A stretch of 64,000 nt of DNA, taken from NCBI GenBank assembly GCA_036522515.1, contig DATDFQ010000028.1, positions 1 through 64,000 on the forward strand, read 5' to 3'. A program made the position numbers and the translations under genes. Positions 17,055 to 31,888 of this stretch are shown here, in pieces. The first letter of the stretch is position 1. Every line of letters begins with the position of its first letter. Source of the stretch: Bacteroidota bacterium. Lineage in GTDB: Bacteria > Bacteroidota > Ignavibacteria > UBA10030 > SZUA-254. The notes below the pieces were generated by a model. It had not been told where the DNA came from and did not search any database. It was given only the letters and a program-made list of their open reading frames with translations.

Positions 17055-17786
17055 TTGCGCCACGTCGGCAACATCAAATCCCTTCACCGCTACCCGGTCA
17101 AATCGATGGCGGGAGAAGCGCTCGCGTCGGCCGTGCTCGGCTGGCACGGCATCGAAGGGGACCGGCGTTTCTCCTTTGTCCGGGGGGGAAACCTGAGCGG
17201 TGTGCCTTGGCTTGTCGCCAGCAAGATGCCGGGGCTGATACGGTACAAAGCCTACCATGCGAACGGCAGGGACCCTTCATCGCCGGTTGTTCGCGTGCGG
17301 ATGCCCGAGGGCGCCGATGTCGAGGTCGAAAGCGAGGCCCTCCTCACGCAAATAGCCGCTTCGTTCGGGAGCGAGGTGACATTGATCCGTGTGCGCAACG
17401 GCATCTTCGACGAATCTCCGCTCTCGGTGATCAGCACGACCACCGTCAGGGCCGTCGAAACGGAGACGGGAATCGCGCTCGACATACGTCGTTTTCGACC
17501 CAATATCCTTGTCGAACCGGCCGGCGATATACCGGTTCACGAGGACGAATGGACCGGCGGAACGGTCGTCTTCGGGAGCGGCGTCGATGCGCCATCGGTG
17601 CGGGTGACGATACCGGATTTGCGATGTGTCATGGTAAACCTCGACCCTGAGACCGCCGAGTCCGATCCGCGCATACACAAAGCGATAGTGAAATCGTGGA
17701 ACAATTGCGCCGGAGTATACGCCTCGGTGTTGAGAACGGGTACGCTATCGGTTGGCGATCCTGTTTTTCTGGAGAAGAATCAGTAG
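17055..17786 (+). CDS. MOSC-domain protein (molybdenum cofactor sulfurase C-terminal family)
   Basis: About 243 aa with the MOSC N-terminal beta-barrel (LHRYPVKSMAGE) and the MOSC domain (ISTTTVRAVE, DIRRFRPNILVE, RCVMVNLDPET, NCAGVYASV, VGDPVFLE). These proteins handle the molybdenum cofactor or act in N-hydroxylated base reduction, like YcbX and mARC; the conserved Cys in RCVMVN is present. Start choice is uncertain: TTG 17055 puts the conserved YPVKS at residue 13 as in relatives, while GTG 16986 is an alternative preceded by GAAAGA. Most sequence upstream of 17000 is repeat-derived and should not be coding. No ferredoxin domain is attached. Confidence 0.78.
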   Translation: MRHVGNIKSLHRYPVKSMAGEALASAVLGWHGIEGDRRFSFVRGGNLSGVPWLVASKMPGLIRYKAYHANGRDPSSPVVRVRMPEGADVEVESEALLTQIAASFGSEVTLIRVRNGIFDESPLSVISTTTVRAVETETGIALDIRRFRPNILVEPAGDIPVHEDEWTGGTVVFGSGVDAPSVRVTIPDLRCVMVNLDPETAESDPRIHKAIVKSWNNCAGVYASVLRTGTLSVGDPVFLEKNQ

Positions 17787-17808
17787 GAGGTTTACCGTGT
17801 CGGGAGGA

Positions 17809-17860
17809 GGAGATCCTTCGCTGCGCTCAGGATGACAGGTGGGGGGTTCAGGATGACAGG
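17809..17860. repeat. CTCAGGATGAC repeat overlapping the tyrA 3' end
   Basis: Contains GAGATCCTTCGCTGCGCTCAG then GATGACA, plus a second CAGGATGACA. On the minus strand CTGTCATCCTGA supplies the final codons and the TGA stop of tyrA. Confidence 0.7.
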
Positions 17861-18603
17861 CGGGTCCGCTTATGGCCCTTCGAGAGTTCCTTTTCCAGCT
17901 TTCTCAATTCTGCAATGAGGAGCCGGGGCGTTTGCCACGCAAAGCGGTTGTGCCGATGCATATCTTCGAGTAACTCGTGCGTGTCATGGCCCGTTGTCTT
18001 TGCGATTTCGGAGAGTCTCCGGTAATTTGACGTCAAGTCGGCCGCCCGGGGGAGGTCGAGCCGCAGGAGAGTGTGGCCGATAAACTGCGTAAGGAAAAGG
18101 CTTGACGCGATCAGCTTATCGTGTTGCCGCGCGCTCATGCGATGGACGATCAGGCCCCGCCCCTCCAGGTAGCGCGAGATTCGGCGGAGCCGTTCGCGCG
18201 GGATTCTTACCGGGCAGAGGACTATTCTCTTTCCGGCGCAGCTTGTTGCAGCGCTATCCGGGCCGAAAAGCGGATGAGTTCCGAGAATAATCGTGTGCCG
18301 TGGGAGGATCGACTTCATCCATAGGATCGGTTCCACCTTCACGGAGCAAACGTCGCAGAGGATCGTTCCCGGGGAGAGGAGGGGGGCCAGTGAGCGAAGG
18401 ACCGGCTTGAGCTTTCCGATCGGGACGGCGAGAATGATGAATTTCTTCCGGGCGGCTTCGGAGACGGGAACCTTCCTCACACCCTGTTCAGTTCGAACGG
18501 ACGGCCGGCTGTCGGAAATGCAAATCCGGAAATCCCGCTTCAGGTAGCGGGCGGCCAGACGGCCGAACCTGCCGTACCCGATGATCGCGATTTCCTTCTT
18601 CAT
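17848..18603 (-). CDS. tyrA: Prephenate dehydrogenase
   Basis: It oxidatively decarboxylates prephenate to 4-hydroxyphenylpyruvate for tyrosine. The 251-aa protein has the N-terminal Rossmann motif IIGYGRFGRLAARYL, the dehydrogenase core ILAVPIGKL and CDVCSVK, the catalytic LGTHPLFGPDSA and the C-terminal helical domain. No ACT regulatory domain is attached, so tyrosine control must lie elsewhere; the leader peptide upstream of trpE is a candidate. Its ATG overlaps the aroC stop by ATGA. It is the last gene of the aromatic cluster, and its last residues and stop come from a dispersed repeat. Confidence 0.9.
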   Translation of the reverse strand: MKKEIAIIGYGRFGRLAARYLKRDFRICISDSRPSVRTEQGVRKVPVSEAARKKFIILAVPIGKLKPVLRSLAPLLSPGTILCDVCSVKVEPILWMKSILPRHTIILGTHPLFGPDSAATSCAGKRIVLCPVRIPRERLRRISRYLEGRGLIVHRMSARQHDKLIASSLFLTQFIGHTLLRLDLPRAADLTSNYRRLSEIAKTTGHDTHELLEDMHRHNRFAWQTPRLLIAELRKLEKELSKGHKRTRLSS

Positions 18604-19937
18604 ACGGTCTTCTGGATCTTCCGTGCGTGCTCGAAGACCGCCTGGAAGACCTTTCGGACGAATCCCGGATCGAGGTTCGCATCGGAAACGAGAGCCAGCC
18701 GCTTGCGTATAATTTCATGCTCGCGTCGCGGGTCCGAGATCGGCACATTCCTGCTTTTCTTCAGGCGGCCCACTTCTCTCACAAGATCCTGCCGCTGGCC
18801 GAGCAGCACCATGAGCATGTCGTCGATGAAATCGATCCTCTTCCTCACCGCCGCGAGAGAATCGCGGGGGCGAAGCAGTTCCTGACGGACAAGGTGATCC
18901 GCGAGCACCAGCGCAATCATGGATTCCACCACCGGCACCACGCGCGGGCAGAGGCAGGGATCGTGCCGCCCTTCGACAGAAATCTTCCTGCTGCGTCCTT
19001 TAAGGTCGATTGTGCTCTGTGCCTTGGGGATTGAGGAAGGAGGCTTGACCGCGACCCGGACCACGATGTCCTCCCCGTTCGAAATGCCGCCGAGGATTCC
19101 GCCCGCATAATTCGTCTTCGTCCTGATTCTGCCGGTCTTCCGTTCCTTATAGAACGAATCGTTATGTTCGCTTCCCATCATCTTCGTCGCGGCAAATCCC
19201 GACCCGATTTCAAACCCTTTGATCGCGGGGATCGAGAGAAGCGCCTTCGCGAGATCGGCCTCCAGCTTGTCGAACACAGGATCGCCGAGTCCCGCTGGGC
19301 AGTTCTTCACGACGGCCTCGACGATTCCGCCCAGGGAGTCGCCGGCCTTCTTTACTTTGAGTATCTTGCGCACCATTTTCTTCGCCGCCTCCGGGTCGGG
19401 GCAGCGGACGGGGTTCTTTTCGATCTCCCGGTAGTCGATTGTTTTGGCCGAGATCGAGCCGACCTCCCTGGTGTAGCCGATTATCCGGATCCCGCGCTTT
19501 GCGAGCACCTGCATCGCCACGGCGCCGGCGGCGACACGGCCTGCGGTTTCCCTTCCTGAAGAGCGGCCGCCCCCGCGATAGTCCTGGATGCCGTATTTCG
19601 AGAGGTAGGTGTACCCGGCATGACCCGGCCGGAAGAGATCCTTGATCGCATCGTACGCGCCCGACTTCTGGTCTTTGTTCCAGACCAGAAGGCAAATCGG
19701 TGTGCCCAGTGTTTTCCCCTCGAAGACTCCGCTCAGGATGTGGACCTGATCGGTTTCGCTCCTGGAGGTGGTGACGGAGCTTTGTCCGGGCCTTCGCCGG
19801 TCAAGCTCCTTCTGGATGTCCTGTTCCGATATCGCCAGCCTGGGTCTTACCCCGTCGATCAGGACCCCCACCGCCTTGCCGTGGCTTTCACCGAATGTCG
19901 TAATTCGAAATAAACTTCCCAAGGCATTTCCGGCCAT
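18600..19937 (-). CDS. aroC: Chorismate synthase fused to AroQ-type chorismate mutase
   Basis: A bifunctional 445-aa protein. Residues 1-350 are chorismate synthase (FGESHGKAVG, RRRPGQSSVTTSR, RPGHAGYTY, DYRGGGRSSGRETAGRVAAGA, EGRHDPCLCPR), which eliminates phosphate from EPSP using reduced FMN. Residues 359-445 are an all-helical AroQ chorismate mutase (LAAVRKRIDFIDDML, LLGQRQDLVREVGRLKK, DPRREHEII), which rearranges chorismate to prephenate. The fusion joins two successive steps and is followed immediately by tyrA, so chorismate can be drawn straight toward tyrosine/phenylalanine. AroQ is usually fused to PheA, TyrA or DAHP synthase; fusion to AroC is uncommon as far as I know. The start lies 3 nt after the aroA stop. 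Confidence 0.93.
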   Translation of the reverse strand: MAGNALGSLFRITTFGESHGKAVGVLIDGVRPRLAISEQDIQKELDRRRPGQSSVTTSRSETDQVHILSGVFEGKTLGTPICLLVWNKDQKSGAYDAIKDLFRPGHAGYTYLSKYGIQDYRGGGRSSGRETAGRVAAGAVAMQVLAKRGIRIIGYTREVGSISAKTIDYREIEKNPVRCPDPEAAKKMVRKILKVKKAGDSLGGIVEAVVKNCPAGLGDPVFDKLEADLAKALLSIPAIKGFEIGSGFAATKMMGSEHNDSFYKERKTGRIRTKTNYAGGILGGISNGEDIVVRVAVKPPSSIPKAQSTIDLKGRSRKISVEGRHDPCLCPRVVPVVESMIALVLADHLVRQELLRPRDSLAAVRKRIDFIDDMLMVLLGQRQDLVREVGRLKKSRNVPISDPRREHEIIRKRLALVSDANLDPGFVRKVFQAVFEHARKIQKTV

Positions 19938-19940
19938 ACG

Positions 19941-21215
19941 CTAACCCTCTTGTTCAAGTTTGCTGAATTCGTCCCAGAAGGTGGGGAAGGACTTCCCGAC
20001 ACACCCCGGGTTCGTGATGACGACACCCTTGACGCGTAATCCCGCCACTGCAAAACTCATCGCCATCCGGTGATCGTTGTATGTGTCGATTGTCGCCGCC
20101 CGCAATGTGCCCGGATGAATCGTGAGCCCGTCTTCGTGCTCTTCGACCGACGCGCCCAGCCTGGTCAATTCCGCCGCCACCGAGATCAGGCGATTGGTCT
20201 CCTTATGCCGGAGGTGAGCGATATCGAAAATGCTCGTCGGCCCCTCTGCGAAGGCGGCGACCACCGCGAGTGTGGGAACGCTGTCGGGAATCTCATTCAT
20301 TTCGACGTCGATACCCCGCAATTTGTTCCCCCGAAGCTCGATGCTGCTTTCGTGGCGCGTCACGGTGCAGCCCATCTCGCCGAGAAGGCTCAGGAACCTG
20401 ATGTCTCCCTGCAGAGATTCCGGAGAAAGGTTCTTGATCACCACATGACCGCCGGTGATAGCCGCGGCGGCGAGGAAATAGGTCGCCGACGAGGCGTCTC
20501 CTTCGATCGGGAATTCGTGCCCGATGTACCTCTGCTTGTTGTTCACCCGGAACAGGGAGTAGTCGATGCTATCGATCTCGGCTCCGAACGACCGCATGAC
20601 GTGCAGCGACATATAGACGTACGGCAGGGAACTTAATTTGCCCTTCACGCGGAGCTCGACGGAGCGCGACGCGTACGGGGCGGAGAGAAGGATGGAGGAG
20701 ACGAACTGGCTGCTCGCCGAGGCGTCGAGTTCGATCCGCCCTCCCGTGAACGTGCCCCCATGGATCGTGACCGGGGGGTATCCATTTTTACTGGCGCTCC
20801 GCACTCCGGCAGAGTGTAACGCGTCGAGCAGGTCCTTGATCGTTCGTTTTTTCATGTCCTCGTCGCCCGTGATGACGGTCTCACCTTTCACAAGAGCGGC
20901 GAGCGTGCTCAAATATCTCATCGCGGTCCCTGCGTTCCCGACGAAAATCTCTTCCGCCGGAGCCCGGAGCTCGCCTCCTGTGCCTTCAACCTCGAGCCCA
21001 CCAGGGTGGTCGTTGATCCGCACCCCGAACTGCCGCAACGCGGCGATGAGGTAGTTCGAATCGTCGCTGCGGGAAGGGTCAAGGAGCGTCGAAGTGCCGT
21101 CGGCCAGCGCCGCGGCGATGAGCGCCCGGTTGGTATAGCTTTTCGAAGGAGGAACTGCCACCTCGAGATCAATCGTCCGTGCCGGGCGGATCGCTCTGAC
21201 AGAAGGCGCGTTCAT
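19941..21215 (-). CDS. aroA: EPSP synthase (3-phosphoshikimate 1-carboxyvinyltransferase)
   Basis: It joins shikimate-3-phosphate and PEP, the sixth step of the shikimate pathway. The 424-aa, two-domain inside-out barrel keeps VPPSKSYTNRALI, GNAGTAMRYLS (93-103), DASASSQFVSSILL, EGDASSATYFLAA, NEIPDSVPTLAVVAAFAEG, RHKETNRL and DTYNDHRMAMSFAVA. The residue after GNAGTAMR, usually Pro in class I enzymes, is Tyr101, a site known to affect PEP/inhibitor contacts. A dispersed repeat (21237-21291) lies between it and the aroDE gene, so it may have partly independent expression. Confidence 0.95.
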   Translation of the reverse strand: MNAPSVRAIRPARTIDLEVAVPPSKSYTNRALIAAALADGTSTLLDPSRSDDSNYLIAALRQFGVRINDHPGGLEVEGTGGELRAPAEEIFVGNAGTAMRYLSTLAALVKGETVITGDEDMKKRTIKDLLDALHSAGVRSASKNGYPPVTIHGGTFTGGRIELDASASSQFVSSILLSAPYASRSVELRVKGKLSSLPYVYMSLHVMRSFGAEIDSIDYSLFRVNNKQRYIGHEFPIEGDASSATYFLAAAAITGGHVVIKNLSPESLQGDIRFLSLLGEMGCTVTRHESSIELRGNKLRGIDVEMNEIPDSVPTLAVVAAFAEGPTSIFDIAHLRHKETNRLISVAAELTRLGASVEEHEDGLTIHPGTLRAATIDTYNDHRMAMSFAVAGLRVKGVVITNPGCVGKSFPTFWDEFSKLEQEG

Positions 21216-21236
21216 GCGGAGGGGTTCCTGTGGGTA

Positions 21237-21291
21237 GGAGATCCTTCGCGGAGTTTACACTGAGCGAAGCGAATGTGCTCAGGATGACAAA
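21237..21291. repeat. CTCAGGATGAC repeat between aroDE and aroA
   Basis: GGAGATCCTTCGCGGAGTTTAC, then ACTGAGCGAAGCGAATGTGC and TCAGGATGACA. It is nearly identical to 34893-34944. It sits inside the aromatic gene cluster in the 88-bp aroDE-aroA gap. Confidence 0.7.
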
Positions 21292-21303
21292 ATGGAGGGA
21301 GGT

Positions 21304-22722
21304 TCAGCATACCTCTAGAAATAATTTGGATTGGAGCCGGGCCTGCTCTGTAAACAGTTCTGACCCGGAAATGATGTTGCACCCGGCTGCCTTCGCATTC
21401 CGAAGCAGGAGTGTCATCGGTGGATAATGGACGGCGTCCAGGACCGTCATTCCGCGACGCAGGAACCGCCGGGGGACCGGAGACTCGTTTGAACGGGGTG
21501 ACATGCCGACGGGCGTTCCGTTCATCAGAATGTCGGCCGCGAGATCGGGAAGGTCCTCAAAGGACGCCCATGAGCAGTCGAGACGCGATGCGAGTGCCCT
21601 TGCCCGCTCGATTGAACGTCCGACTATCGTTGTCCTCGCGCCCGCATTCCGCGCAGCGAACGCCATGCTCGATGAGGTGCCCCCGGTGCCGAGAACGATC
21701 GCCCTTTTCCCCCGAGGCTTTGTTCTCGTTCGGAGGAGCTTCCGAAGAGCAAGATAGTCCGTGTTGCATCCCGAAAGAGCTCCTCTTCGAGCCACGACGG
21801 TATTAACGGATTGGAGGATCAGTGCATCCTCGTCGACATGATCGATAAATGGGATGATATCTCGTTTAAACGGCATGGTGATGCTGAGGCCCGAAACCTC
21901 GTCCCGAAACGCCTTGAAGAACCTCCGGAGGTCGTCCACCAGAAATGTCACATAGACCGCATTGAGAGAGTTGCGCGAAAAGAACGCGTTATGATGACGG
22001 AATCCCTGGCTCTGGGAGACGGGATTCCCGACAAGTCCGAAGAGGCGGGTGCTCCTGTTTATATTCTCGACCCGGAAGATCTCTCTCAAGTCCGCCGCAG
22101 ACAACTGCCCCGGTGCCGTCGATTCGCTGATCCCGGAGGAGGCGTAGCTGTACGCCGACCCATACTTTCCTCCGAGAATCCTGCTCACCTGGCCCCGTTC
22201 GTTCATGCAGAACGCGGAGATCCGGCGCCCCCTGTTCCGGGCACCCATGAGAAGATCGAATATCTTCTTATTGTCGCTGATGTCGTTTGCCGATGTGACG
22301 AGCTTGAGGTTCCTGGCGGGGGTCGCGCAAAGGCGTTTCAGGATCGAGCGAAGGTCCGGTGGCGTCTGTTTCGTATCGTGATGAGATACGATCACTCTCG
22401 ACGCGCGACCCGCCGAGAGTAAGCGCCGGATCTGGCGAATTCCCCATCGCAATTCGATGTCCACATATTCCGCCCCGGAAGCCAGTGCGGAGGAGAGGAT
22501 GCGTACCTGCTCTTCGGCGGAGCCCCGGAACCATCCGCCCTCGGCACGATGACGGTTGGTTATTATTACATGCGGCCTCGGTGAGCGGAGAAGCTTCTCC
22601 ATATCGGGATTTTTCATGCGGTCGATCCTGATCTCCACGAGATCGCGGGAGCCCGCCTCTGCTTTCAGGATCGACCGGGCCTCTTTCATCGAGCGGGGCG
22701 CTATCGAGACGATGAGCTTCAC
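21304..22722 (-). CDS. aroDE: 3-dehydroquinate dehydratase (type I)/shikimate dehydrogenase fusion
   Basis: A bifunctional 472-aa enzyme catalysing steps three and four of the shikimate pathway. The N-terminal ~215 residues are a type I dehydroquinase: EIRID, VIVSHHDTKQTP with the catalytic His and LKLVTSANDISD with the Schiff-base Lys140. The C-terminal half is shikimate dehydrogenase: GLVGNPVSQSQG, LSITMPFKRDI (catalytic Lys), NTVVARRG, GCNTDY (Asp), the NADP motif GTGGTSSS and a final FTEQARLQ. The same arrangement occurs in plants and Chlamydiae. I prefer GTG 22722, which gives a GTGA overlap with aroB and a GAGG ribosome site 7 nt away; GTG 22728 is the alternative. Confidence 0.92.
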   Translation of the reverse strand: MKLIVSIAPRSMKEARSILKAEAGSRDLVEIRIDRMKNPDMEKLLRSPRPHVIITNRHRAEGGWFRGSAEEQVRILSSALASGAEYVDIELRWGIRQIRRLLSAGRASRVIVSHHDTKQTPPDLRSILKRLCATPARNLKLVTSANDISDNKKIFDLLMGARNRGRRISAFCMNERGQVSRILGGKYGSAYSYASSGISESTAPGQLSAADLREIFRVENINRSTRLFGLVGNPVSQSQGFRHHNAFFSRNSLNAVYVTFLVDDLRRFFKAFRDEVSGLSITMPFKRDIIPFIDHVDEDALILQSVNTVVARRGALSGCNTDYLALRKLLRTRTKPRGKRAIVLGTGGTSSSMAFAARNAGARTTIVGRSIERARALASRLDCSWASFEDLPDLAADILMNGTPVGMSPRSNESPVPRRFLRRGMTVLDAVHYPPMTLLLRNAKAAGCNIISGSELFTEQARLQSKLFLEVC

Positions 22723-23816
22723 GCCCACGCCTCGAGCGATGCGCGCACTTCGGCGCGCGAAAGCGGGATTCCGGTGACCGCCTCGCCGACCGCAAGGGGA
22801 AGGGTGTACCGCACGACACCGCCCACCGATTTCTTGTCACGGCTCGTCATCAAAAGGAGTTTCTTCCGGTCCGTCCGCGCGGGCAATTCGGTCGGAAGGC
22901 CGTAGAGACGCAACAACTTCTCTAAGCGGGCAACCCCCGTGAGGGCGAGCATGTTCTTCGTGGCTGCGACCCGCGCCTCAGTCACCATGCCGATGGAGAC
23001 CGCTTCTCCGTGGGAAATCCGGTAGCCGGAGAGAAGCTCGAGCGCATGGCCGATGGTATGGCCGAAATTGAGTATCCGCCTTAGATCGAGCTCAAGTTCA
23101 TCTTCCTGCACGACGCCCCGTTTCAGCTCGCAGCACCGGGTGATAATCTTCAGGAGGATGCCGGTTTTTCTCGCAAGGACCCCGGAGGCGGATCGTTCCA
23201 GCTTCGCAAACATGCCGGCATCGAGGATCATGGCGTATTTGACGACTTCCGCAAGACCTCCCCGAAATTCGCGCAAGGGGAGAGTCTTGAGTAACGACGG
23301 GTCGATGAAGACGGAATCGGGCTGGTGGAAGGCACCGATAAGATTCTTACCGAGCGGGTGGTCCACAGCCACCTTGCCTCCGACGCTGCTGTCCACCTGG
23401 GAGAGAAGGGTCGTAGGGATCTGGACATAGGGCACGCCCCGGTGGAGGGTCGCCGCCACGAAACCCGCAAGATCGCCAACCATCCCTCCGCCGAGGGCGA
23501 TGATCAAAGAGTCGCGTCCGGCGCCCATCCCGAGGAGCCTGTCTTCGAGCCGGTTCTTGGTATTCCTGTCTTTGCTCCGCTCCCCGGCCGGGACGGCCAG
23601 GAGATGAGCCCGATGCCCCGCAGATCCGAGCGCCTTCAGAAATGTCGGCGCATAGAGCTTCTGCACATGATTGTCTGTGATGACGAAGAGCCGCCTCTCC
23701 CCGTATCGCCTCCGGATTTCGGCAGCGGCCTGTTTCAGGGTCGTCCCGATCACGATGTCGTACGAATCGTCGACGACTCGCTTCAAGTTTACATGAATCT
23801 TCATTTGCAAGGTCAT
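22719..23816 (-). CDS. aroB: 3-dehydroquinate synthase
   Basis: An NAD-dependent cyclisation of DAHP to 3-dehydroquinate, the second shikimate step. The 365-aa protein has ALGGGMVGDLAGFVAATLHRGVP split over the NAD/metal region, PTTLLSQVDSSVGGKVAVDHPLGKN, GGLAEVVKYAMI, LNFGHTIGHALE and SHGEAVSIGM, including the metal-binding Glu and His residues. The ATG at 23816 has an alternative at 23804. It is separated from trpA by 110 nt containing two palindromes, one of them terminator-like, so this may be the first gene of a semi-independent aro unit. Confidence 0.95.
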   Translation of the reverse strand: MTLQMKIHVNLKRVVDDSYDIVIGTTLKQAAAEIRRRYGERRLFVITDNHVQKLYAPTFLKALGSAGHRAHLLAVPAGERSKDRNTKNRLEDRLLGMGAGRDSLIIALGGGMVGDLAGFVAATLHRGVPYVQIPTTLLSQVDSSVGGKVAVDHPLGKNLIGAFHQPDSVFIDPSLLKTLPLREFRGGLAEVVKYAMILDAGMFAKLERSASGVLARKTGILLKIITRCCELKRGVVQEDELELDLRRILNFGHTIGHALELLSGYRISHGEAVSIGMVTEARVAATKNMLALTGVARLEKLLRLYGLPTELPARTDRKKLLLMTSRDKKSVGGVVRYTLPLAVGEAVTGIPLSRAEVRASLEAWA

Positions 23817-23836
23817 CCGGCAAGTTCTATTTCGTT

Positions 23837-23868
23837 AAAAGACACGCAAGCTAAAGCTTGCGCCTACC
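23837..23868 (-). terminator. Terminator-like GGTAG palindrome between trpA and aroB
   Basis: On the minus strand: GGTAGGCG, then CGCAAGC-TTTA-GCTTGCG and GTGTCTTTT. The hairpin with T-rich tail lies 20 nt before aroB and could reduce readthrough from trp into aro genes. It also belongs to the dispersed GGTAG family. Confidence 0.5.
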
Positions 23869-23894
23869 AAATCCGAACCCACATCATAATCGTC

Positions 23895-23918
23895 GGTAGC
23901 CGCAGCCTTTAGGCTGCG
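23895..23918. repeat. GGTAG palindrome (stem GCAGCC) downstream of trpA
   Basis: GGTAGCCGCAGCC-TTTA-GGCTGCG on the plus strand. It lies 8 bp beyond the trpA stop and, with the 23837-23868 copy, forms an inverted pair. Confidence 0.7.
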
Positions 23919-23926
23919 TCACCCGG

Positions 23927-24724
23927 TCAATGTGTGTCCAGCGCCTTCCGTATCGAGCGGACAAAATCGCATGCGCGTTCGATTCCGCGGCCGGGTGGAG
24001 CGTCCCTGAGCGTCTTGATGAGAGCGCTTCCGATGATCACACCGTCGCTCATCTCCGCGACCCGGCGGGCATCATCGGGAGTCGAGATGCCGAAGCCCAC
24101 AAGGAGCGCGTTGTTTTTCACGGCTTCCCTGGCGCTCCGGAGAAAGCCTTCCGCCTGGCCCGCGAGCGCCGTCCGCTCGCCCGTTACGCCCGTGATGGAG
24201 ATGCAGTAGAGGAACCCGCTCGAGATCCTGTCGAGCTCGGCGAGCCGGGCCGGAGGAGTCGTGGGCGCAGCGAGAAAGATTGTCGAGACTCCCCGCTCTT
24301 TGGCGGCGGAGACATATTCGGCGCTTTCCTCGAGCGGCAGGTCGGCGATGATGGTTCCATCGATGCCGCCCGAGGCGCACTCTCCCAGAAAGCGGTCCAT
24401 GCCGTACGAATAAACCGGATTCGCATATCCCATCAGAACGAGTGGAAGGTCGGTCTCCTTCCTGATTTCCCGCACGAACCCGAAAATCCCGGCGAGCGTC
24501 ACTCCGTTCCCGAGCGCCGCTTCTGAACTCTGCTGGATCGTCGGGCCGTCGGCGATCGGGTCCGAGAACGGAATGCCGATCTCGATGATATCCGCGCCAG
24601 ATTTCGCGAGCCCGAGGATGAGCGGTACGGTATCCTGCATTGCGGGGTATCCCGGAGTTACGAACAGGGAGAGCGCCTTGTTCCCGTTTTCCTTTAGCTT
24701 GAGGAGTGTTCGTGCGATCCTCAT
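23927..24724 (-). CDS. trpA: Tryptophan synthase alpha subunit
   Basis: It cleaves indole-3-glycerol phosphate and channels indole to TrpB. The 265-aa barrel contains FVTPGYP, the catalytic Glu/Asp segment [45 protein letters not shown], the loop around [14 protein letters not shown] and [12 protein letters not shown]. The ATG overlaps the trpB stop (ATGA), so the two subunits are translationally coupled. Confidence 0.96.
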
Positions 24725-25917
24725 GGGGTTGAAGCCTTCGTGATGGCCGGAAGATCCTTCTCGCCTCTGCCGGAAAGGTTTACCACCACGATCTCGCCGG
24801 CGGTTGTTTTCGGCATGAGATGCCTCAGGTAGGCGATCGCATGCGCCGATTCGAGAGCGGGCAGGAGGCCTTCAAGGCGTGTCAATTCGAGCCCCGCATC
24901 CAGGGCTTCCTGATCGGTGACGGAGACGTACGACACGCGGCCGGAATCTTTCAGGTAGCTGTGTTCGGGGCCCACGCCGGGATAGTCCAGCCCCGCAGAA
25001 ATCGAGTGCGCCGGCATGATTTGCCCTTCCTTGTCCTGCAGGACGTAGCTATAGGAGCCGTGCAGCACTCCGGGCCTGCCTGCGGTGAGCGTCGCGGCGT
25101 GGTGCCCGGTGGCTACGCCGAGCCCGGCCGCCTCCACTCCGATCATCTTCACCGGATCGTCCAAAAAATCATAGAATAAACCGATCGAGTTGCTCCCTCC
25201 CCCCACACACGCGACCAGGTAGTCCGGAAGGCGCCGTTCCCTGGCCAGCACCTGCTGCCGCGCCTCCTTTCCGATCACACGCTGAAAGTCTCTGACGATC
25301 ATCGGGTAGGGGTGGGGGCCGACGACGGAACCGATGACATAAAAGGTGTTGCGGACGTTTGTGACCCAGTCGCGCAGGGCCTCGTTCGTCGCATCCTTCA
25401 GGGTCCTCGTTCCGGAGGTCACCGGGACGACCTCCGCGCCGAGAAGCTTCATCCGGGCGACGTTTATTTCCTGGCGCGCCATGTCCTCCGTCCCCATGTA
25501 GACGACGCAGGAAAGGCCCATCATGGCCGCGACCGTGGCGGTGGCGACGCCATGCTGGCCGGCGCCGGTCTCGGCGATGATTCTCGATTTGCCGACATGC
25601 CTCGCGATGAGAATCTGCCCGATGGTGTTGTTGATCTTGTGGGCGCCGGTGTGGCACAAATCCTCGCGTTTCAGGTAAATCGCAGCGCGGCCGAACTTCG
25701 CTGTCAGCCTCTTTGCCGGGTAGAGCGCGGTGGGCCGGCCGGCGTACTCTTTCAGCAGCACGTCCAGCTCGGCCTGAAACGACTGGTCGCGGCTGAGTCC
25801 GGAGTACGCATCTTCCAGCTCCTTCAACGCGGAAATCAACGTCTCGGGCACAAACCTCCCGCCGAAGAGACCGAAGTGCCCGCGGTTGTCCGGAAACCGC
25901 CCTTGAGTCGAACTCAT
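24721..25917 (-). CDS. trpB: Tryptophan synthase beta subunit
   Basis: A PLP enzyme condensing indole with serine to tryptophan. The 398-aa length is standard. Lys94 in [14 protein letters not shown] binds [45 protein letters not shown] and the C-terminal HAIAYL are all present. The start ATG at 25917 overlaps the DAHP synthase stop (ATGA); a much longer in-frame extension upstream lies over the DAHP synthase gene and is not coding. Confidence 0.97.
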
Positions 25918-26960
25918 CCGGCCGCCTGTGCGCTGTGGATATTCCGGGTCAGCGTTCTGTTCATGATGGGGGCAAGTTGTTCGACTTTCTCCAGAAGCAA
26001 CTTGAACTTGGAGGGTTTCAGCGATTGATACCCGTCGGAGAGCGCCATGGCGGGGTAGTTGTGAACTTCGATGATCAGCCCGTCGGCTCCCGCGGCGATC
26101 GCGGCGAGGGACATCGCGGTGACGCCGTCCCACACGCCGATGCCGTGGCTCGGGTCGACGATAATCGGGAGGTGCGACAACTTCTTGATGATGGGGATGG
26201 AATTGAGGTCGAGCGTGTTGCGCGTCGCCGGTTCGAACGTCCTGATCCCCCGTTCGCAAAGGATCACGTTGTAGTTTCCTCCGCTCAGGATGTATTCGGC
26301 GGACATCAGGAGCTCCTCGATCGTCGCCGCGAAACCCCGCTTGAGGAGGATCGGTTTGCGCAGCCCGCCGAGCTCTTCCAGGAGGGAATAGTTGTGCATG
26401 TTGCGGGCGCCGACCTGCAGGACATCGGCGCATTCGGCGACGATCGGGAGGGTTGCGCTATCCTTCACTTCCGTGATGATCCTGAGCCCCGTCGCATCCC
26501 GCGCGTCCTTGAGGTAGAGCAAGGCCTCGTCCTTGAGCCCCTGGAACGAGTAGGGGGAGGTTCGCGGCTTGTAGGCCCCTCCCCGAAGGAACTTGATCCC
26601 CAGCTCCTTCAGATTGAAAGCGAGATCGATGATCTGCTGTCGGCTCTCGACGGAGCACGGACCGGCGGCGATGGCGAGCTCCTTCCCCCCGATCAGGGCG
26701 CCGTTGACGGCGATGACGGAGTCTTCGGGCTTTCCTTCCCGGCTCACGAGCTTGAACGGCTTGGTGACCGCGATCGCCTCCACCACGCCGGGGAGGTTGA
26801 GGAAGAGCTCCGGATCGACCTTCCCCTTGTTCCCGGTGACGCCGATCGCGAGGCGCTCCTCGCCGGGGATCTCATGGGGAGTGTAGCCGAGGGACCGGAT
26901 TTTCTCTTTCACCCGTTCGACATCCGAACGCGGTGCGTTGAGCTTCATGACGATGAGCAT
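25914..26960 (-). CDS. aroF: 3-deoxy-7-phosphoheptulonate synthase (DAHP synthase, type I-beta with N-terminal regulatory domain)
   Basis: It makes DAHP from PEP and erythrose-4-phosphate, the committed step of aromatic synthesis. The 348-aa protein starts with a ~75-residue ferredoxin-like domain ([17 protein letters not shown]), as in the Thermotoga enzyme where it mediates feedback by Tyr/Phe. The barrel follows with [66 protein letters not shown] and IIEVHNYP. It sits between trpF and trpB, so the pathway entry enzyme is co-transcribed with trp. The gene symbol is by function; nomenclature for this class varies. Confidence 0.94.
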
Positions 26961-26984: not shown

Positions 26985-27659
26985 TTACTCGATTGTTCCG
27001 AGCGCTTCAAACAACAACTTCACTTTGTTCCGGTCCTTCTTGCCCGGGGCGGATTCGACGCCGCTATTGACGTCGATCGCGTAGGGCTTTACCGCCCTGA
27101 CGACGACGGGCGCATTTTCCGGATTGAGTCCCCCGGCGACGATGAGCGGATAGTAATTCTTCAGGCGCTCGGCGACCGAGAGATCCGGCATCGTCCCCGA
27201 TCCGCCGTACACGCTGGCTCCGTGTCCTTCGCCGGGAGTGGGTTCCCCGCCGTCCGGGCGGATGCCCGGGCCTCCGCTCGCGCCGTCGAGCATGGCGGCG
27301 GAGATCGCGTACTCTTTCACCCGTTCGACCTCGTCGATGTTCCTGATCCTGAACGCTTTGACGACACTCAGGGGATATCCCTGGCAATCCGCCGGAGTCT
27401 CGTCGCCGCTCAGTTGGATCGCCCGAATCCCGGTCCGCCTGATGACCGATTGGATCGTCTCTCTCCCGGCGTTCACAAACACGCCCACAGGCGTAATAAA
27501 AGGCGGCAGCTCCCGTATGATCGCGGCCGCCGCATCGGGATCAACGTACCGCGGGCTCCCCGTGTAGAAAATAAACCCGAGAGCATCGGCGCCCGCCGAC
27601 GAGCACATCTGCGCATCTTCGGAATCGCGTATGCCGCAAATCTTAACCCTGAGTTTCAT
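26985..27659 (-). CDS. trpF: Phosphoribosylanthranilate isomerase
   Basis: It performs the Amadori rearrangement of phosphoribosylanthranilate. The 224-aa barrel has the catalytic KICGIRD near the start (Cys7-type), GFIFYTGSPRYV, VGVFVNAG, IQLSGDE, AGGLNPENA and DVNSGVESAPGKKD with the catalytic Asp. Between the strand LDGA and the conserved GGSG-type segment there is a Gly/Pro-rich insertion of roughly 20 residues (from SGGPGIRP to GHGASVYG) not seen in typical TrpF. A strong AAAGGAG ribosome site lies inside the end of trpC, which overlaps this gene by 17 nt. Confidence 0.94.
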   Translation of the reverse strand: MKLRVKICGIRDSEDAQMCSSAGADALGFIFYTGSPRYVDPDAAAAIIRELPPFITPVGVFVNAGRETIQSVIRRTGIRAIQLSGDETPADCQGYPLSVVKAFRIRNIDEVERVKEYAISAAMLDGASGGPGIRPDGGEPTPGEGHGASVYGGSGTMPDLSVAERLKNYYPLIVAGGLNPENAPVVVRAVKPYAIDVNSGVESAPGKKDRNKVKLLFEALGTIE

Positions 27660-28449
27660 GACCGACTCCTTTCAAGAGTTCCCGGAGCGACGCGCCGGGC
27701 GACGACGATTTCATAAAATGTTCTCCGATCAACGCCGACCGGACTCCGCAGGCGAGGAGCTTGAGGAGATCGGAGGGCTCGCGGATTCCGCTCTCGCTGA
27801 CGAGCGTGATTCCTTTCACCGGCGCAAAATGGGCTGCCATGGTCACCGTGCGGCCCAGGTCGATTTCGAAAGACCGAAGATCCCGGTTGTTGATGCCGAT
27901 CAGGCGCATACGGTCGAGATCGAGGCGGTCGATTTCCTTCTCGTCGTAGAGCTCGACGAGCGCCTCAAGGCCGAGTTCGGCGGCGGCGGCGTGGAGGTCG
28001 GCCAGATGGGCCTTGTCGAGGATCCCCGCGATGAGCAGGACCGCATCGGCGCCGCATGATTTCGCCTCATGTACCTGAAACTCGTCGATGATGAAATCTT
28101 TCCGGAGGACCGGAAGGAGAATCGACTCGCGTACGCTCCGCAAATCCTGAATCGTGCCGGAGAAAAACCGCTCGTCGGTCAGCACCGAGATGCCGGCCGC
28201 ACCGTTTGCCGCGTACTGGCGCGCGACCTCGACGGGAGAGGGGCCCTCCCTGCGCGAGCCGGCCGAGGGTGAGGATCGCTTGAACTCCGCTATGATCGCG
28301 AAGGTCTTTGCCTGCGCGATGGCGCGGGTCATCGACCGCGTGCCCGCTCCGTAGAACTCAGTCTGAGCCAGGTCCGAGATCCGTGTCCCGCGCTTCCGGG
28401 ACGCGACCTCTCCGCGTTTGTGATCGACGATGGTCTCGAGAATATTCAT
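27643..28449 (-). CDS. trpC: Indole-3-glycerol phosphate synthase
   Basis: It closes the indole ring. The 268-aa barrel has IAEFKRSSPSAG (usually IAEIKKASPSxG), ISVLTDERFFSG, LRKDFIIDEFQV with the catalytic Lys, LLIAGIL, LVELYDEKE, IGINNRDL, SESGIREPSD and ALIGEHFMKSS. The ATG overlaps the trpD stop by ATGA. All catalytic segments are intact despite the slightly divergent phosphate-binding loop. Confidence 0.95.
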   Translation of the reverse strand: MNILETIVDHKRGEVASRKRGTRISDLAQTEFYGAGTRSMTRAIAQAKTFAIIAEFKRSSPSAGSRREGPSPVEVARQYAANGAAGISVLTDERFFSGTIQDLRSVRESILLPVLRKDFIIDEFQVHEAKSCGADAVLLIAGILDKAHLADLHAAAAELGLEALVELYDEKEIDRLDLDRMRLIGINNRDLRSFEIDLGRTVTMAAHFAPVKGITLVSESGIREPSDLLKLLACGVRSALIGEHFMKSSSPGASLRELLKGVGHETQG

Positions 28450-29456
28450 TTGGAAGCGTACTCCCTCAATGCTTCGAGCTTCCCGAGCGCCTTCCCCGAA
28501 TCGATCGATTCCCCCGCCAGGCGGACCGCATCGCTGACGTTCGCGGCTTTTCCCGCGGCCATCAGGCCGAGAGCCGAATTCGCGAGCACGATATCGCGGT
28601 GGGGGAGCCTTTCGCCTCCGAGAATGCGGAGCGCGATCGCAGCGTTGGCTTCACTCGAGCCGCCGAGGATGGAATCACGCTTCACTGCCGGCAAGCCGAA
28701 GTGCCCCGGTTCCAGATGGCTCGGTTCAGCGGAGGACCTGCTCCCGATATCGAAAAGCGTCGTGCGTGCTTCGAGCGACACCTCGTCGAGCCCGTCGTCC
28801 GAATGAACGACCAGAATCCGGAGGGGATCGAGGCGCGAAAAAGCTCCCGCCATCATCCGGGCGGCCCCTTCGCTGAACGCGCCCACGAGCTGGCGCCGGA
28901 CCCCGGCCGGGTTGGTCATCGGGCCGAGGATATTGAACAACGTCTTGACCCCGAGCTCTGCCCGGGCCTTCGCCGCATGTTTCATCGCCGGGTGAAAGAG
29001 GGGCGCGAAGAGGAAACCGATTCCGACGCGGTTGATGCAGTCCCCGGCCCGCCCCGGGGGGAGGTCGATATTCACTCCAAGCGCCCTGAGCACGTCGGCG
29101 CTGCCGCACGCGCTCGATATCGACTTATTCCCGTGCTTCGCCACCGTGACGCCGGCACCGGCCACGACAAAGGAAGCGACTGTCGAGATGTTGAACGTGC
29201 CCGTGCCGTCGCCGCCGGTCCCGCACATGTCGATCGCGTCGGCATCGTCCAGCGCGACCCGAACGCATTTTTCCCGCATCACCTCAACAAACCCGAGGAC
29301 TTCCTCGGTCTGCTCCCCCTTGGTTCGCAGGGCGACAAGTAACCCGGCAATTTGCACGTCCGTCGCGGCCCCCTCCATGATGGTACGCATCGCGGAGGCA
29401 GCCTCCTGGCGCGTGAGATGTCCGCCTTCCGTGACCTTCCGGATCAGCTCCCTCAT
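28446..29456 (-). CDS. trpD: Anthranilate phosphoribosyltransferase
   Basis: It transfers phosphoribose from PRPP to anthranilate. The 336-aa protein keeps the helical N-terminal domain, the PRPP loop DMCGTGGDGTGTFNIST, VAKHGNKSISSACGSADVL (usually KHGNRAxSS), FLFAPLFHPAMK and FNILGPMTNPA. The ATG overlaps the trpG stop by ATGA, so amidotransferase and transferase are separate polypeptides, unlike the enterobacterial TrpGD fusion. Confidence 0.96.
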   Translation of the reverse strand: MRELIRKVTEGGHLTRQEAASAMRTIMEGAATDVQIAGLLVALRTKGEQTEEVLGFVEVMREKCVRVALDDADAIDMCGTGGDGTGTFNISTVASFVVAGAGVTVAKHGNKSISSACGSADVLRALGVNIDLPPGRAGDCINRVGIGFLFAPLFHPAMKHAAKARAELGVKTLFNILGPMTNPAGVRRQLVGAFSEGAARMMAGAFSRLDPLRILVVHSDDGLDEVSLEARTTLFDIGSRSSAEPSHLEPGHFGLPAVKRDSILGGSSEANAAIALRILGGERLPHRDIVLANSALGLMAAGKAANVSDAVRLAGESIDSGKALGKLEALREYASK

Positions 29457-30043
29457 CGCGCGGCCACCTCGGGGCGGGGGGCGCTCCGCAGCCAGTTGGC
29501 AATGATCCGGGGGCCGCTGGTGGTGAGCACCGACTCGGGGTGGAATTGAATCCCCTCGACCGGGTACTCCCGGTGACGCACTCCCATGATGATTCGATCG
29601 TCGGTGGTCGAAGTGACTTCGAGCTCGGGGGGTAAATGGTCCGTGCCGATGATCAACGAGTGATAGCGTGTAGCGGTAAACGGAGTTCCGAGGCCAGCGT
29701 AGAGCCCCTTCCCGTTATGGCGGATCTCCGAGGTTTTTCCGTGCATCAGGACCGGCGCGCGGCAGATGGTGCCGCCGTAGGCGGCTCCGATCGCCTGATG
29801 CCCCAGGCAAACTCCGAGGATCGGCGTGGAAGGGCCCAGGAGCCGGATGAGTTCGACGCAGACGCCCGCATGTTCCGGCCTCCCGGGCCCCGGCGAGATC
29901 AGAATTCCGCCGGGTTTCAGCGAGACGATCTCCTTCAGAGTGAGCGCGTCGTTCCGGACCACCCGGTAGTCGCCGGTGTGAAGGCCGACGAGCTGGACGA
30001 GGTTGTACGTGAACGAATCGTAGTTGTCGATGATCAAAATCAA
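29453..30043 (-). CDS. trpG: Anthranilate synthase glutamine amidotransferase subunit
   Basis: A class I glutaminase that supplies ammonia to TrpE. The 196-aa protein has ILIIDNYDSFTYNLVQ, the oxyanion/nucleophile segment ISPGPGRPEHAG and GVCLGHQAI with the catalytic Cys, then RYHSL and GIQFHPES with His and Glu. The start is TTG 30043, chosen because it forms a TTGA overlap with the trpE stop and lies 7-9 nt after GGAAGGAA. Upstream in-frame sequence covers trpE. It could also serve folate (PabA-like role), but the operon position makes Trp synthesis its main job. Confidence 0.94.
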   Translation of the reverse strand: MILIIDNYDSFTYNLVQLVGLHTGDYRVVRNDALTLKEIVSLKPGGILISPGPGRPEHAGVCVELIRLLGPSTPILGVCLGHQAIGAAYGGTICRAPVLMHGKTSEIRHNGKGLYAGLGTPFTATRYHSLIIGTDHLPPELEVTSTTDDRIIMGVRHREYPVEGIQFHPESVLTTSGPRIIANWLRSAPRPEVAAR

Positions 30044-31557
30044 CGCGAAATTCCTTCCGCCATCCGGAGCGCCTCGACGAGCGCGCGGGCCTTGTTGGTG
30101 GTTTCGTCGTATTCCCGGGCCGGATCTGAATCGGCCACGATTCCGGCGCCTGCCTGCAGGTAAATCCGCCCGTTCGATGAAAACATCGTCCGGATCGCGA
30201 TGCACATGTCCATATTTCCGGAGAAGTCGAAATATCCGACCCCCCCCGCATAGAGGCCCCGCCGCGACGACTCAAGCTCGTCAATGATCTCCATGGCGCG
30301 GATTTTCGGCGCCCCCGAGACGGTTCCGGCGGGAAAGGTGGCTTTCAGGACGTCGACGCAGCTCGTTCCCTGCCGCACCTTCCCGATCACACGGGAAGCG
30401 ATATGCATGACGTGCGAATAACGGACGACGGTCATGAGCTGGTCGACGGCGACGCTGCCCACCTCGCACACGCGGCCGAGGTCGTTGCGGCCGAGGTCGA
30501 CGAGCATGACGTGCTCGGCGCGCTCCTTCTCGTCGGAGAGAAGCTCCGCTTCCAGCCTTCTGTCCTCCTCTTCGGTGATGCCCCGCGGACGGGTGCCCGC
30601 GATCGGATAGACTTCCGCGATTCCATTTTCCATCCGGACGAGGATTTCCGGGGAAGAGCCGATGACCTTGAAGCCGTCGAAATCGAGATAATAAAGGTAG
30701 GGGGAGGGGTTGATGACCCGGAGCGACCTGTACGCGTTAAACGCGTCGCCGCTGATGCCGGCTGAGAAGCGGCGCGAGAGGACGACCTGGAAGATATCGC
30801 CTTCCTCGATGTAGTGTTTCGCCTTCCTGACGATTTCCTCATATCCGGCCCTCTCCTTCTCTTCGGCTTGCCGGCCGGCCGGGTGGCTTTCCAGGCGATC
30901 GGGAAGCGGGCCCGCGAGGAGATGAAACTCGTGGGGACGGCTTTCCCGATCGGCCAGGAGGGTTTCGAGCCGCGTGATTTCCTCCTGGGCATGCTCGTAC
31001 TGGCGGCGGAGATCGCTGCCGGGTTCGATGAGCTCGTTCACGATCGTGATGATCTCGTGTTTCAAGTGATCGAACACGAGCACCGAGGCGTACAGCCCGA
31101 GGATGCTGTCGTCGAGGTTCATGTCGTCGCCCGCGGCCGCGGGGATATTCTCGATGAACCGGATGGCATCGTATCCGATGAAACCGACAAGCCCGCCCCG
31201 GAATCGTGGGAGAGAGGGGAGAGGCGGTTGGCGGTAACGGCCGACAAGCTCGTTGACGATTTCGAAGAAGTTCCCTTCGGAGACGCGCTCCGAACGGGTT
31301 GAATCGGATTGCCGTACCTCGATGATCCGGGTCTTTTTCCCCTTGCATTTCAGGATCGCGAGAGGGTCGCGCCCGAGGAACGAGTAGCGCGCGAAGCGCT
31401 CGCCTCCTTCCACGCTTTCGAGCAGGAACGAGCACGCGGCGCCTTCCCGGAGCCGCAGGTAGGCGGAAACGGGCGTCAAGGTGTCGGCAAGCATCCGCTT
31501 GCTGACGGGGATGACGTTGTATGTTTGGGAGAGTTCCTTAAATTCTTCGAATGTCAT
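30040..31557 (-). CDS. trpE: Anthranilate synthase component I
   Basis: It converts chorismate plus ammonia to anthranilate, the first Trp-specific step. The 505-aa protein carries the Trp feedback motif FLLESVEGGERFARYSF near residue 45, GGLVGFIGYDAIRF, DIFQVVLSRRF, SPEILVR, GTRPRG, ELLSDEKERAEHVMLVDLGRNDLGRV, ATFPAGTVSGAPKIRAMEII and AGAGIVADSDPAREYDE. It should therefore be allosterically inhibited by Trp. I choose ATG 31557: the longer reading to 31599 runs through the attenuator hairpin. It is the first structural gene after the leader/attenuator, with AGGG as a weak ribosome site. Confidence 0.96.
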   Translation of the reverse strand: MTFEEFKELSQTYNVIPVSKRMLADTLTPVSAYLRLREGAACSFLLESVEGGERFARYSFLGRDPLAILKCKGKKTRIIEVRQSDSTRSERVSEGNFFEIVNELVGRYRQPPLPSLPRFRGGLVGFIGYDAIRFIENIPAAAGDDMNLDDSILGLYASVLVFDHLKHEIITIVNELIEPGSDLRRQYEHAQEEITRLETLLADRESRPHEFHLLAGPLPDRLESHPAGRQAEEKERAGYEEIVRKAKHYIEEGDIFQVVLSRRFSAGISGDAFNAYRSLRVINPSPYLYYLDFDGFKVIGSSPEILVRMENGIAEVYPIAGTRPRGITEEEDRRLEAELLSDEKERAEHVMLVDLGRNDLGRVCEVGSVAVDQLMTVVRYSHVMHIASRVIGKVRQGTSCVDVLKATFPAGTVSGAPKIRAMEIIDELESSRRGLYAGGVGYFDFSGNMDMCIAIRTMFSSNGRIYLQAGAGIVADSDPAREYDETTNKARALVEALRMAEGISR

Positions 31558-31569
31558 CAGATTCGCCCT

Positions 31570-31607
31570 AAAACACGAAAGCCCCTCCTGGTGTTCCAAG
31601 AAGGGCT
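31570..31607 (-). terminator. Attenuator: intrinsic terminator between leader peptide and trpE
   Basis: On the minus strand a fully paired 12-bp stem (two G-U pairs), AGCCCTTCTTGG and CCAGGAGGGGCT with loop AACA (31580-31607), is followed by TTCGTGTTTT. Its 5' arm (GCCCTTCTTG, 31597-31606) can instead pair with CGAGAACGGC at 31637-31646, the last codons of the leader peptide: nine pairs (one G-U), one C-C mismatch. That gives a textbook terminator/antiterminator switch. A further small hairpin (31664-31682, GGTAC/GTACC) overlaps the Trp/Tyr codons. Confidence 0.85.
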
Positions 31608-31632
31608 CGCTGACTACTCGATCTTTAGAAAA

Positions 31633-31719
31633 TTATGCCGTTCTCGTCCCACCCGGTACCGAAGGTACAGGAAACCAGTACCAATACCAAAAACCGCTAT
31701 TCCGGGGGACTGAGATCAT
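31633..31719 (-). CDS. trpL: Aromatic leader peptide (mixed Trp/Tyr/Phe attenuator peptide)
   Basis: A 28-codon open frame, ATG at 31719 to TAA at 31633, with residues 10-16 reading FWYWYWF: three Trp, two Tyr and two Phe codons in a row. It ends GGTRTA-stop, and those final codons form the antiterminator's first arm, so a ribosome that reaches the stop would mask it and allow the terminator to form, while stalling in the aromatic run would free it. I know of no other reason for seven consecutive aromatic codons there. No Shine-Dalgarno is visible; the promoter places transcription start at about the ATG itself, so translation may be leaderless. Mixed composition suits an operon making precursors of all three amino acids. 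Confidence 0.85.
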   Translation of the reverse strand: MISVPRNSGFWYWYWFPVPSVPGGTRTA

Positions 31720-31725
31720 GTTTGA

Positions 31726-31754
31726 ACGATACGAAGAAAAGAGGAAATTGTCAA
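31726..31754 (-). promoter_or_regulatory. Promoter of the aromatic supercluster
   Basis: Consensus -35 TTGACA at 31749-31754, 17-bp spacer, -10 TATCGT at 31726-31731. Transcription should start near 31719-31720, the first base of the leader ATG. Confidence 0.72.
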
Positions 31755-31811: not shown

Positions 31812-31888
31812 TTGTAGGGGCGGGGCATGCCCCGCCCGCGGTTCGGATACCGCAATCCTTTCGGGCGACGCATGCGTCGCCCCTACAA
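31812..31888. repeat. 77-bp MITE-like inverted repeat element
   Basis: The ends are 11-bp terminal inverted repeats, TTGTAGGGGCG and CGCCCCTACAA. Inside each end is a further palindrome: GGGGCGGGGCATGCCCCGCCC and GGGCGACGCATGCGTCGCCC. No coding capacity. Confidence 0.6.

Follow-up and report, generated by a model that had tools for sequence, protein, structure and literature searches.

The 64,000-nucleotide stretch of DNA analysed here (hereafter the window) carries on its minus strand a 13-gene aromatic cluster headed by trpE, and the interval between its promoter and trpE raises the question of whether the cluster is governed by ribosome-mediated attenuation and, if so, which aromatic amino acids are sensed. 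Most of what is known about attenuators comes from a few model bacteria, and most of them respond to the products of a single pathway. The leader described here plausibly keeps watch on all three aromatic end products and gates the pathway in its entirety.

Leader, terminator and gene cluster

The elements upstream of trpE, in the order of transcription, are as follows.

31726–31754 (−): sigma-70-type promoter TTGACA-17-TATCGT; −35 TTGACA at 31754–31749, 17-nt spacer, −10 TATCGT at 31731–31726
31633–31719 (−): 28-codon leader peptide open reading frame (ORF), MISVPRNSGFWYWYWFPVPSVPGGTRTA; ATG at 31719, TAA at 31635–31633
31705–31713 (−): segment 1 (CUCAGUCCC); its predicted partner without a ribosome is GGGACGAG at the antiterminator, from the minimum-free-energy fold of the window only
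31672–31692 (−): regulatory codons 10–16, Phe Trp Tyr Trp Tyr Trp Phe (run FWYWYWF)
31637–31646 (−): 5′ strand of the antiterminator, CGAGAACGGC, within the last leader codons; 9 of 10 positions pair with the terminator 5′ arm
31597–31606 (−): terminator 5′ arm, GCCCUUCUUG, common to terminator and antiterminator
31570–31608 (−): intrinsic terminator hairpin with interrupted U-tract; stem-loop at 31608–31579, its stem varying between families with pairing kept

Both the promoter and the 28-codon leader with FWYWYWF at residues 10–16 agree in sequence and coordinates with an earlier, sequence-only reading of this DNA. When six frames of the 64-kb window were scanned, FWYWYWF was the sole run of five or more aromatic codons, the expectation per 64 kb being 0.08 five-codon aromatic runs and none longer; seven consecutive aromatic codons in a genome of 60% GC are not an effect of composition. 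Relatives likewise retain a short leader ORF with many codons for the amino acids that the downstream genes make, and within the family the mixed aromatic run is retained, with a GGxRxA-like tail in most members. The folding z of the leader RNA is −2.0.

The leader ATG (31719) lies just 6 nt past the −10 hexamer and there is therefore no space for a Shine-Dalgarno site, while the usual distance of a transcription start from the −10 would place +1 at the AUG or a few nucleotides before it. Most relatives with a good promoter match have the same −35 and −10 elements and begin the leader 2–14 nt past the −10 (some picks being spurious where a good match is absent). From promoter spacing, the leader mRNA is predicted to be leaderless or near-leaderless; leader ORFs translated in this way are known in actinobacteria. 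Just upstream of the promoter, the palindromic repeat TAGGGGCGnnnCATGC occurs as two facing copies (31815–31885; chance expectation 0.07).

An intrinsic terminator between the leader ORF and the first structural gene is likewise kept in relatives. In the window (GAGCCCUUCUUGG-AACA-CCAGGAGGGGCUU, 31608–31579) it comprises 13 pairs including G·U, at −21.6 kcal/mol, around the AACA loop noted earlier; what had been called a T-rich tail is an interrupted U-tract (UUUCGUGUUUU).

Downstream, the genes are arranged as follows.

30040–31557 (−): trpE, anthranilate synthase component I (PF00425, PF04715), starting at 31557
29453–30037 (−): trpG, glutamine amidotransferase (PF00117); start codon uncertain, with several candidates
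26985–29456 (−): trpD, trpC and trpF, overlapping genes (PF00591, PF00218, PF00697)
25914–26960 (−): aroF, DAHP synthase with a ferredoxin-like domain (PF00793, PF18152)
23927–25917 (−): trpB and trpA (PF00291, PF00290); trpB ATG at 25917
17848–23816 (−): aroB, an aroD-aroE fusion, aroA, an aroC-chorismate mutase fusion and tyrA (Pfam)

The order identified by Pfam, trpE-trpG-trpD-trpC-trpF-aroF-trpB-trpA-aroB-aroDE-aroA-aroC::chorismate mutase-tyrA, bears out the claim that the common shikimate pathway and the Trp and Tyr branches follow the leader, all 13 genes being on one strand. The widest gap, 110 nt between trpA and aroB (23817–23926), contains two small hairpins, one of which (23863–23844) has a T-rich tail and may act as a partial internal terminator, uncoupling the downstream genes; given this hairpin and its tail, a single transcript is likely rather than proven. 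A prephenate dehydratase gene is located elsewhere in the genome (contig 55), and no separate Phe leader or attenuator was seen before pheA in that genome.

The cluster includes two gene fusions, of chorismate synthase with chorismate mutase (18600–19937) and of 3-dehydroquinase with shikimate dehydrogenase (21304–22728). An intergenic repeat, GTCATCCTGAGC...GAAGGATCTCCT, is present in the aroDE-aroA gap (21216–21303) and again after tyrA (17780–17847), and a gene of the type III polyketide synthase (chalcone/stilbene synthase) family lies downstream of the cluster at 10200–11249.

Alternative pairing and ribosome-masked folding

The alternative helix between the leader tail and the terminator 5′ arm had been described as nine pairs; the pairing of 31646–31637 with 31606–31597 is upheld, but it encloses a C·C mismatch and one of its pairs is G·U. 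At −9.3 to −12.6 kcal/mol (about −9 to −12.6), against −21.6 kcal/mol for the terminator, the antiterminator is the less stable structure, so the choice between the two must be kinetic, as in trp. A 1:2 pause or protector hairpin involving segment 1 is predicted from the window's minimum-free-energy fold alone.

For ribosome-masked folding, only RNA ahead of a modelled ribosome was folded, with the 3′ end placed where RNA polymerase has just finished the terminator loop. With any of codons 10–15 in the A site, the probability of the antiterminator was 0.68–0.99 (leading edges +12 and +15), and with the ribosome at codon 25 through the stop it was 0.00. Without a ribosome, the tail is taken up by the start of the leader, and the terminator hairpin folds (fold of the window leader). 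In silico, then, antiterminator and terminator are mutually exclusive, the former being covered while a ribosome sits at the stop codon and released by a stall at the run, which is the direction of switching that the sequence-only reading had predicted for folding with and without masked segments. The folds favour the antiterminator at Phe, Trp and Tyr codons alike within codons 10–15, and codon 16 (Phe) depends on the ribosome footprint, with probabilities of 0.68, 0.11 and 0.05 at leading edges +12, +15 and +18. Across the 76 leaders collected from the class (see below), the modelled stall value exceeded that at the stop in 64; shuffled tails often pair too, and real tails ranked above shuffled ones in 54 of the 76, a weaker and generic control.

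We consider it quite probable that the element is a ribosome-mediated (trp/his-type) attenuator that acts as an OR gate for shortage of aromatic aminoacyl-tRNAs. In this mechanism, transcription would begin at the leader AUG or immediately ahead of it; a ribosome that crosses the aromatic run and reaches the stop would cover the leader tail, so that the terminator hairpin forms, whereas one stalled in the run would leave the tail exposed, and the terminator 5′ arm could then base-pair with it. That pairing would let transcription enter the 13 genes from trpE to tyrA, and low charged tRNA-Trp or tRNA-Tyr, probably also tRNA-Phe, should each suffice alone. When the leader is not translated, segment 1 may hide the tail, giving termination by default.

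Control by a T-box, a riboswitch or TRAP was rejected. No T-box, riboswitch or other Rfam family matched the window at the gathering threshold; in the leader region the sole hit was a chance-level ctRNA match below threshold, Trp_leader not being matched. A TRAP (TrpBP) gene was found in 0 of the 98 genomes of the order, while the B. subtilis control was detected.

Conservation and the rough match of leader codons to operon content

The comparison covered all 98 genomes of the order in the collection and 60 further loci in the class. Within the order, leader and terminator are nearly always present where trpE heads a full trp operon (with trpDCF), and trpEG-only loci are without them. The same layout is conserved throughout the Ignavibacteria-like class, from which 76 leader-terminator pairs were collected: nearly all loci with a full trp operon have a core of Trp codons, in many cases with Phe or Tyr close by, and a terminator (ACCCUUCUNNG...), the antiterminator lying at the stop codon or just after it.

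Taken singly, most antiterminator duplexes were not significantly better than those of shuffled tails (for the window, p = 0.13), and a test in which tails and arms are swapped among loci was therefore adopted. Among the 76 leaders, duplexes of a tail with its own arm averaged −5.7 kcal/mol against −4.6 kcal/mol for permuted pairs, with 0 of 2,000 permutations as low. The corresponding values within the order were −7.45 and −6.14 (0 of 2,000), and with one locus per distinct arm, a version that largely removes the inflation that relatedness brings to this test, 1 of 2,000 permutations was as low. Upstream of trpE in relatives, then, the leader-terminator unit is conserved and its tail/arm pairing covaries. 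With a unit that is conserved, pairing that covaries and folding that switches, ribosome-mediated attenuation in the classical trp/phe/his geometry, as first proposed, is the best reading.

These data also bear on whether the hairpin might be a fixed terminator or processing signal, with an incidental small ORF and cluster expression set elsewhere. The interrupted U-tract and the strength of the terminator relative to the antiterminator would fit such a signal, but the ORF, aromatic run, tail-arm pairing and hairpin are conserved together in many families and the unit is absent from trpEG-only loci, making this explanation scarcely credible. Nor is it at all probable that the aromatic peptide itself arrests the ribosome, perhaps with a ligand, in the manner of TnaC or SecM rather than through codon starvation. 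Peptides rich in aromatic residues can exert effects within the exit tunnel, as TnaC does, and several leaders of the window's family (f1) have the GGxRxA-like C-terminal tail; however, genera differ freely in the order and number of aromatic residues and yet retain the codon class, which makes peptide arrest unlikely, and the conservation of the tail is accounted for by the antiterminator RNA that lies at the same place.

The codons in the run differ among families. Leaders of families f5 and f6 are Trp-only (WWW or WWWW; one YWW) and precede trpEGDCF-(aroF)-trpBA; those of f1, f2 and f3 mix Tyr, usually Phe too, with Trp, and precede operons extended by tyrA and, in f1, further by aroB, aroDE, aroA and aroC-CM. 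In the TrpE tree, f1, f2, f3 and f9 form one clade (SH-aLRT 98) beside the f5/f6 group, the exception being a divergent f1 member (G007) that falls outside on a very long branch. Where a locus had sufficient sequence to be counted, a Tyr no more than three residues from Trp was associated with tyrA in the operon both in the class (9/1 against 15/38; Fisher p = 4e-4) and in the order (9/1 against 2/7; p = 0.005), p-values that ignore shared descent, the association within the order possibly reflecting one event. Leaders were chosen mechanically, as the best-scoring ones, and over-long starts can be taken (for example, G032 and G011), so these counts are approximate. When looked up as a test of prediction, tyrA was found ~4 kb downstream of four mixed leaders (G588, G586, G565 and G572) and ~7 kb downstream of a fifth (G469). 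Exceptions are G575, where tyrA lies 4 kb downstream although the leader is Trp-only, and G453, a mixed leader with no nearby tyrA; family f9 also has mixed leaders with no tyrA nearby, so the link is not absolute, and many f14 and f24 leaders have Phe or Tyr near Trp and no tyrA. The codon mix thus appears roughly to follow the genes controlled, a link that is strong, with exceptions. From Trp-only through Trp/Tyr to Trp/Tyr/Phe, the leaders of relatives provide a natural series for comparing sensor content with operon content, in which the codon set was seemingly retuned from Trp-only as genes of the common pathway and the Tyr branch were taken into the trp operon.

Two side observations concern TrpE. 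In several near-complete f1 genomes (G002, G006, G008 and G013), a close TrpE is missing, with at most a weak chorismate-binding match, which suggests that they may have lost Trp synthesis. Family f4 and part of f6 (for example, L169 and L142) have trpE-trpG without the remainder of the trp operon and without an attenuator; the separate branch formed by the TrpE of these stand-alone loci suggests another role.

Known attenuators and recurrence in other phyla

Like enterobacterial trpL (Rfam Trp_leader), the element combines regulatory codons, a terminator before trpE, an alternative antiterminator and termination when the ribosome is at the stop. It differs in its probable reading of Tyr, and plausibly Phe, besides Trp, in leaving no room for a Shine-Dalgarno site, in matching no Rfam family, in placing the antiterminator strand inside the last leader codons and in controlling trp together with shikimate genes and tyrA. 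The E. coli pheA leader shares an aromatic codon run, but reads Phe only. Multivalent attenuators are found in E. coli at ilvGMEDA (Ile/Val/Leu) and thrABC (Thr/Ile), where, as is probable here, a single leader senses several amino acids whose pathways share operon genes; the present case concerns the aromatic family and another lineage, and among relatives the codons in the leader change along with the genes of the operon. Elf and Ehrenberg (PMC1183508) list ilvGMEDA and thr among the operons known to be attenuated.

In the Bacillus aro-trp supraoperon, trp is inserted in an aro operon and controlled by TRAP (PMC1173090). As in the window, where such control is probable, trp genes there share a transcription-attenuated cluster with common-pathway and tyrosine genes, but Bacillus senses Trp via an RNA-binding protein of which no homologue was found in the 98 genomes of the window's order. 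Song et al. (PMC1173090) also predicted putative attenuators before tyrA supraoperons in other bacteria, a parallel for large aromatic clusters; leader codons are not described in the part of that paper dealing with them. In open-access papers, to which the search was confined, no account was found of one leader that reads Trp, Tyr and Phe jointly.

Mixed leaders are not peculiar to this locus: relatives and other phyla carry them too. Of 30 trpE loci from the class to which a Neomarinimicrobiota genome belongs, 25 have leader and terminator, and all 25 leaders contain W, Y and F (for example, MATYNQLAYYYFWFLRTG and NYYSWYWFF), before operons of the order trpEGDCFBA-pheA-tyrA-aroF-aroA-aroE-aroC-aroB. 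Relatives of a Gemmatimonadota genome, including Latescibacterota, have leaders like YFWYFWRRFDGRYYYYRR before trpEGDCF-tyrS-trpBA-aroF-(tyrA)-aroA-aroE, and mixed leaders occur in most of this group.

The recurrence bears on whether the signal might be a stall at the three Trp codons, with Tyr and Phe as neutral neighbours. No leader was found that lacks Trp, the Trp-only type is presumed to be the ancestral form in the sister families and in many class members a WWW core is flanked by Y/F that vary. Against this, interleaved Tyr is kept in nearly all f1–f3 and f9 leaders although the peptide changes elsewhere, Tyr/Phe codons often outnumber Trp codons in leaders of Neomarinimicrobiota (YYYFWF) and composition does not account for the window's all-aromatic run; a purely Trp-directed attenuator is accordingly unlikely. 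The element is very probably a true, multivalent aromatic attenuator, in which Trp sensing appears, by analogy, near certain, Tyr sensing likely and Phe sensing plausible. The earlier claim of one leader for all three is supported by comparison (Trp-only sisters, mixed leaders with tyrA/aro operons, recurrence in other phyla), less firmly for Phe: pheA lies outside the cluster, Phe near Trp varies among relatives and the stall at F16 ranges from 0.05 to 0.68.

Gene orders and hairpin sequences in the other phyla are unlike the window's, which argues for separate assembly. Whether pan-aromatic attenuators arose independently in at least three lineages (the Ignavibacteria-like clade, Neomarinimicrobiota and Gemmatimonadota/Latescibacterota) whenever trp operons became superclusters, the codon set being rewritten to match the added branches, is in our judgement evenly balanced; if true, they would constitute a genomic record of regulatory OR-gate evolution, in the Ignavibacteria-like class on leaderless leader mRNAs. 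The distribution suggests that attenuation is widespread in phyla with hardly any leader peptides described, and the leader would offer a ready multi-input sensor for aromatic-pathway engineering. In the Gemmatimonadota/Latescibacterota group, a tyrosyl-tRNA synthetase gene is located inside the trp operon under a Tyr-rich leader (L060:14606–15868; L333–L338).
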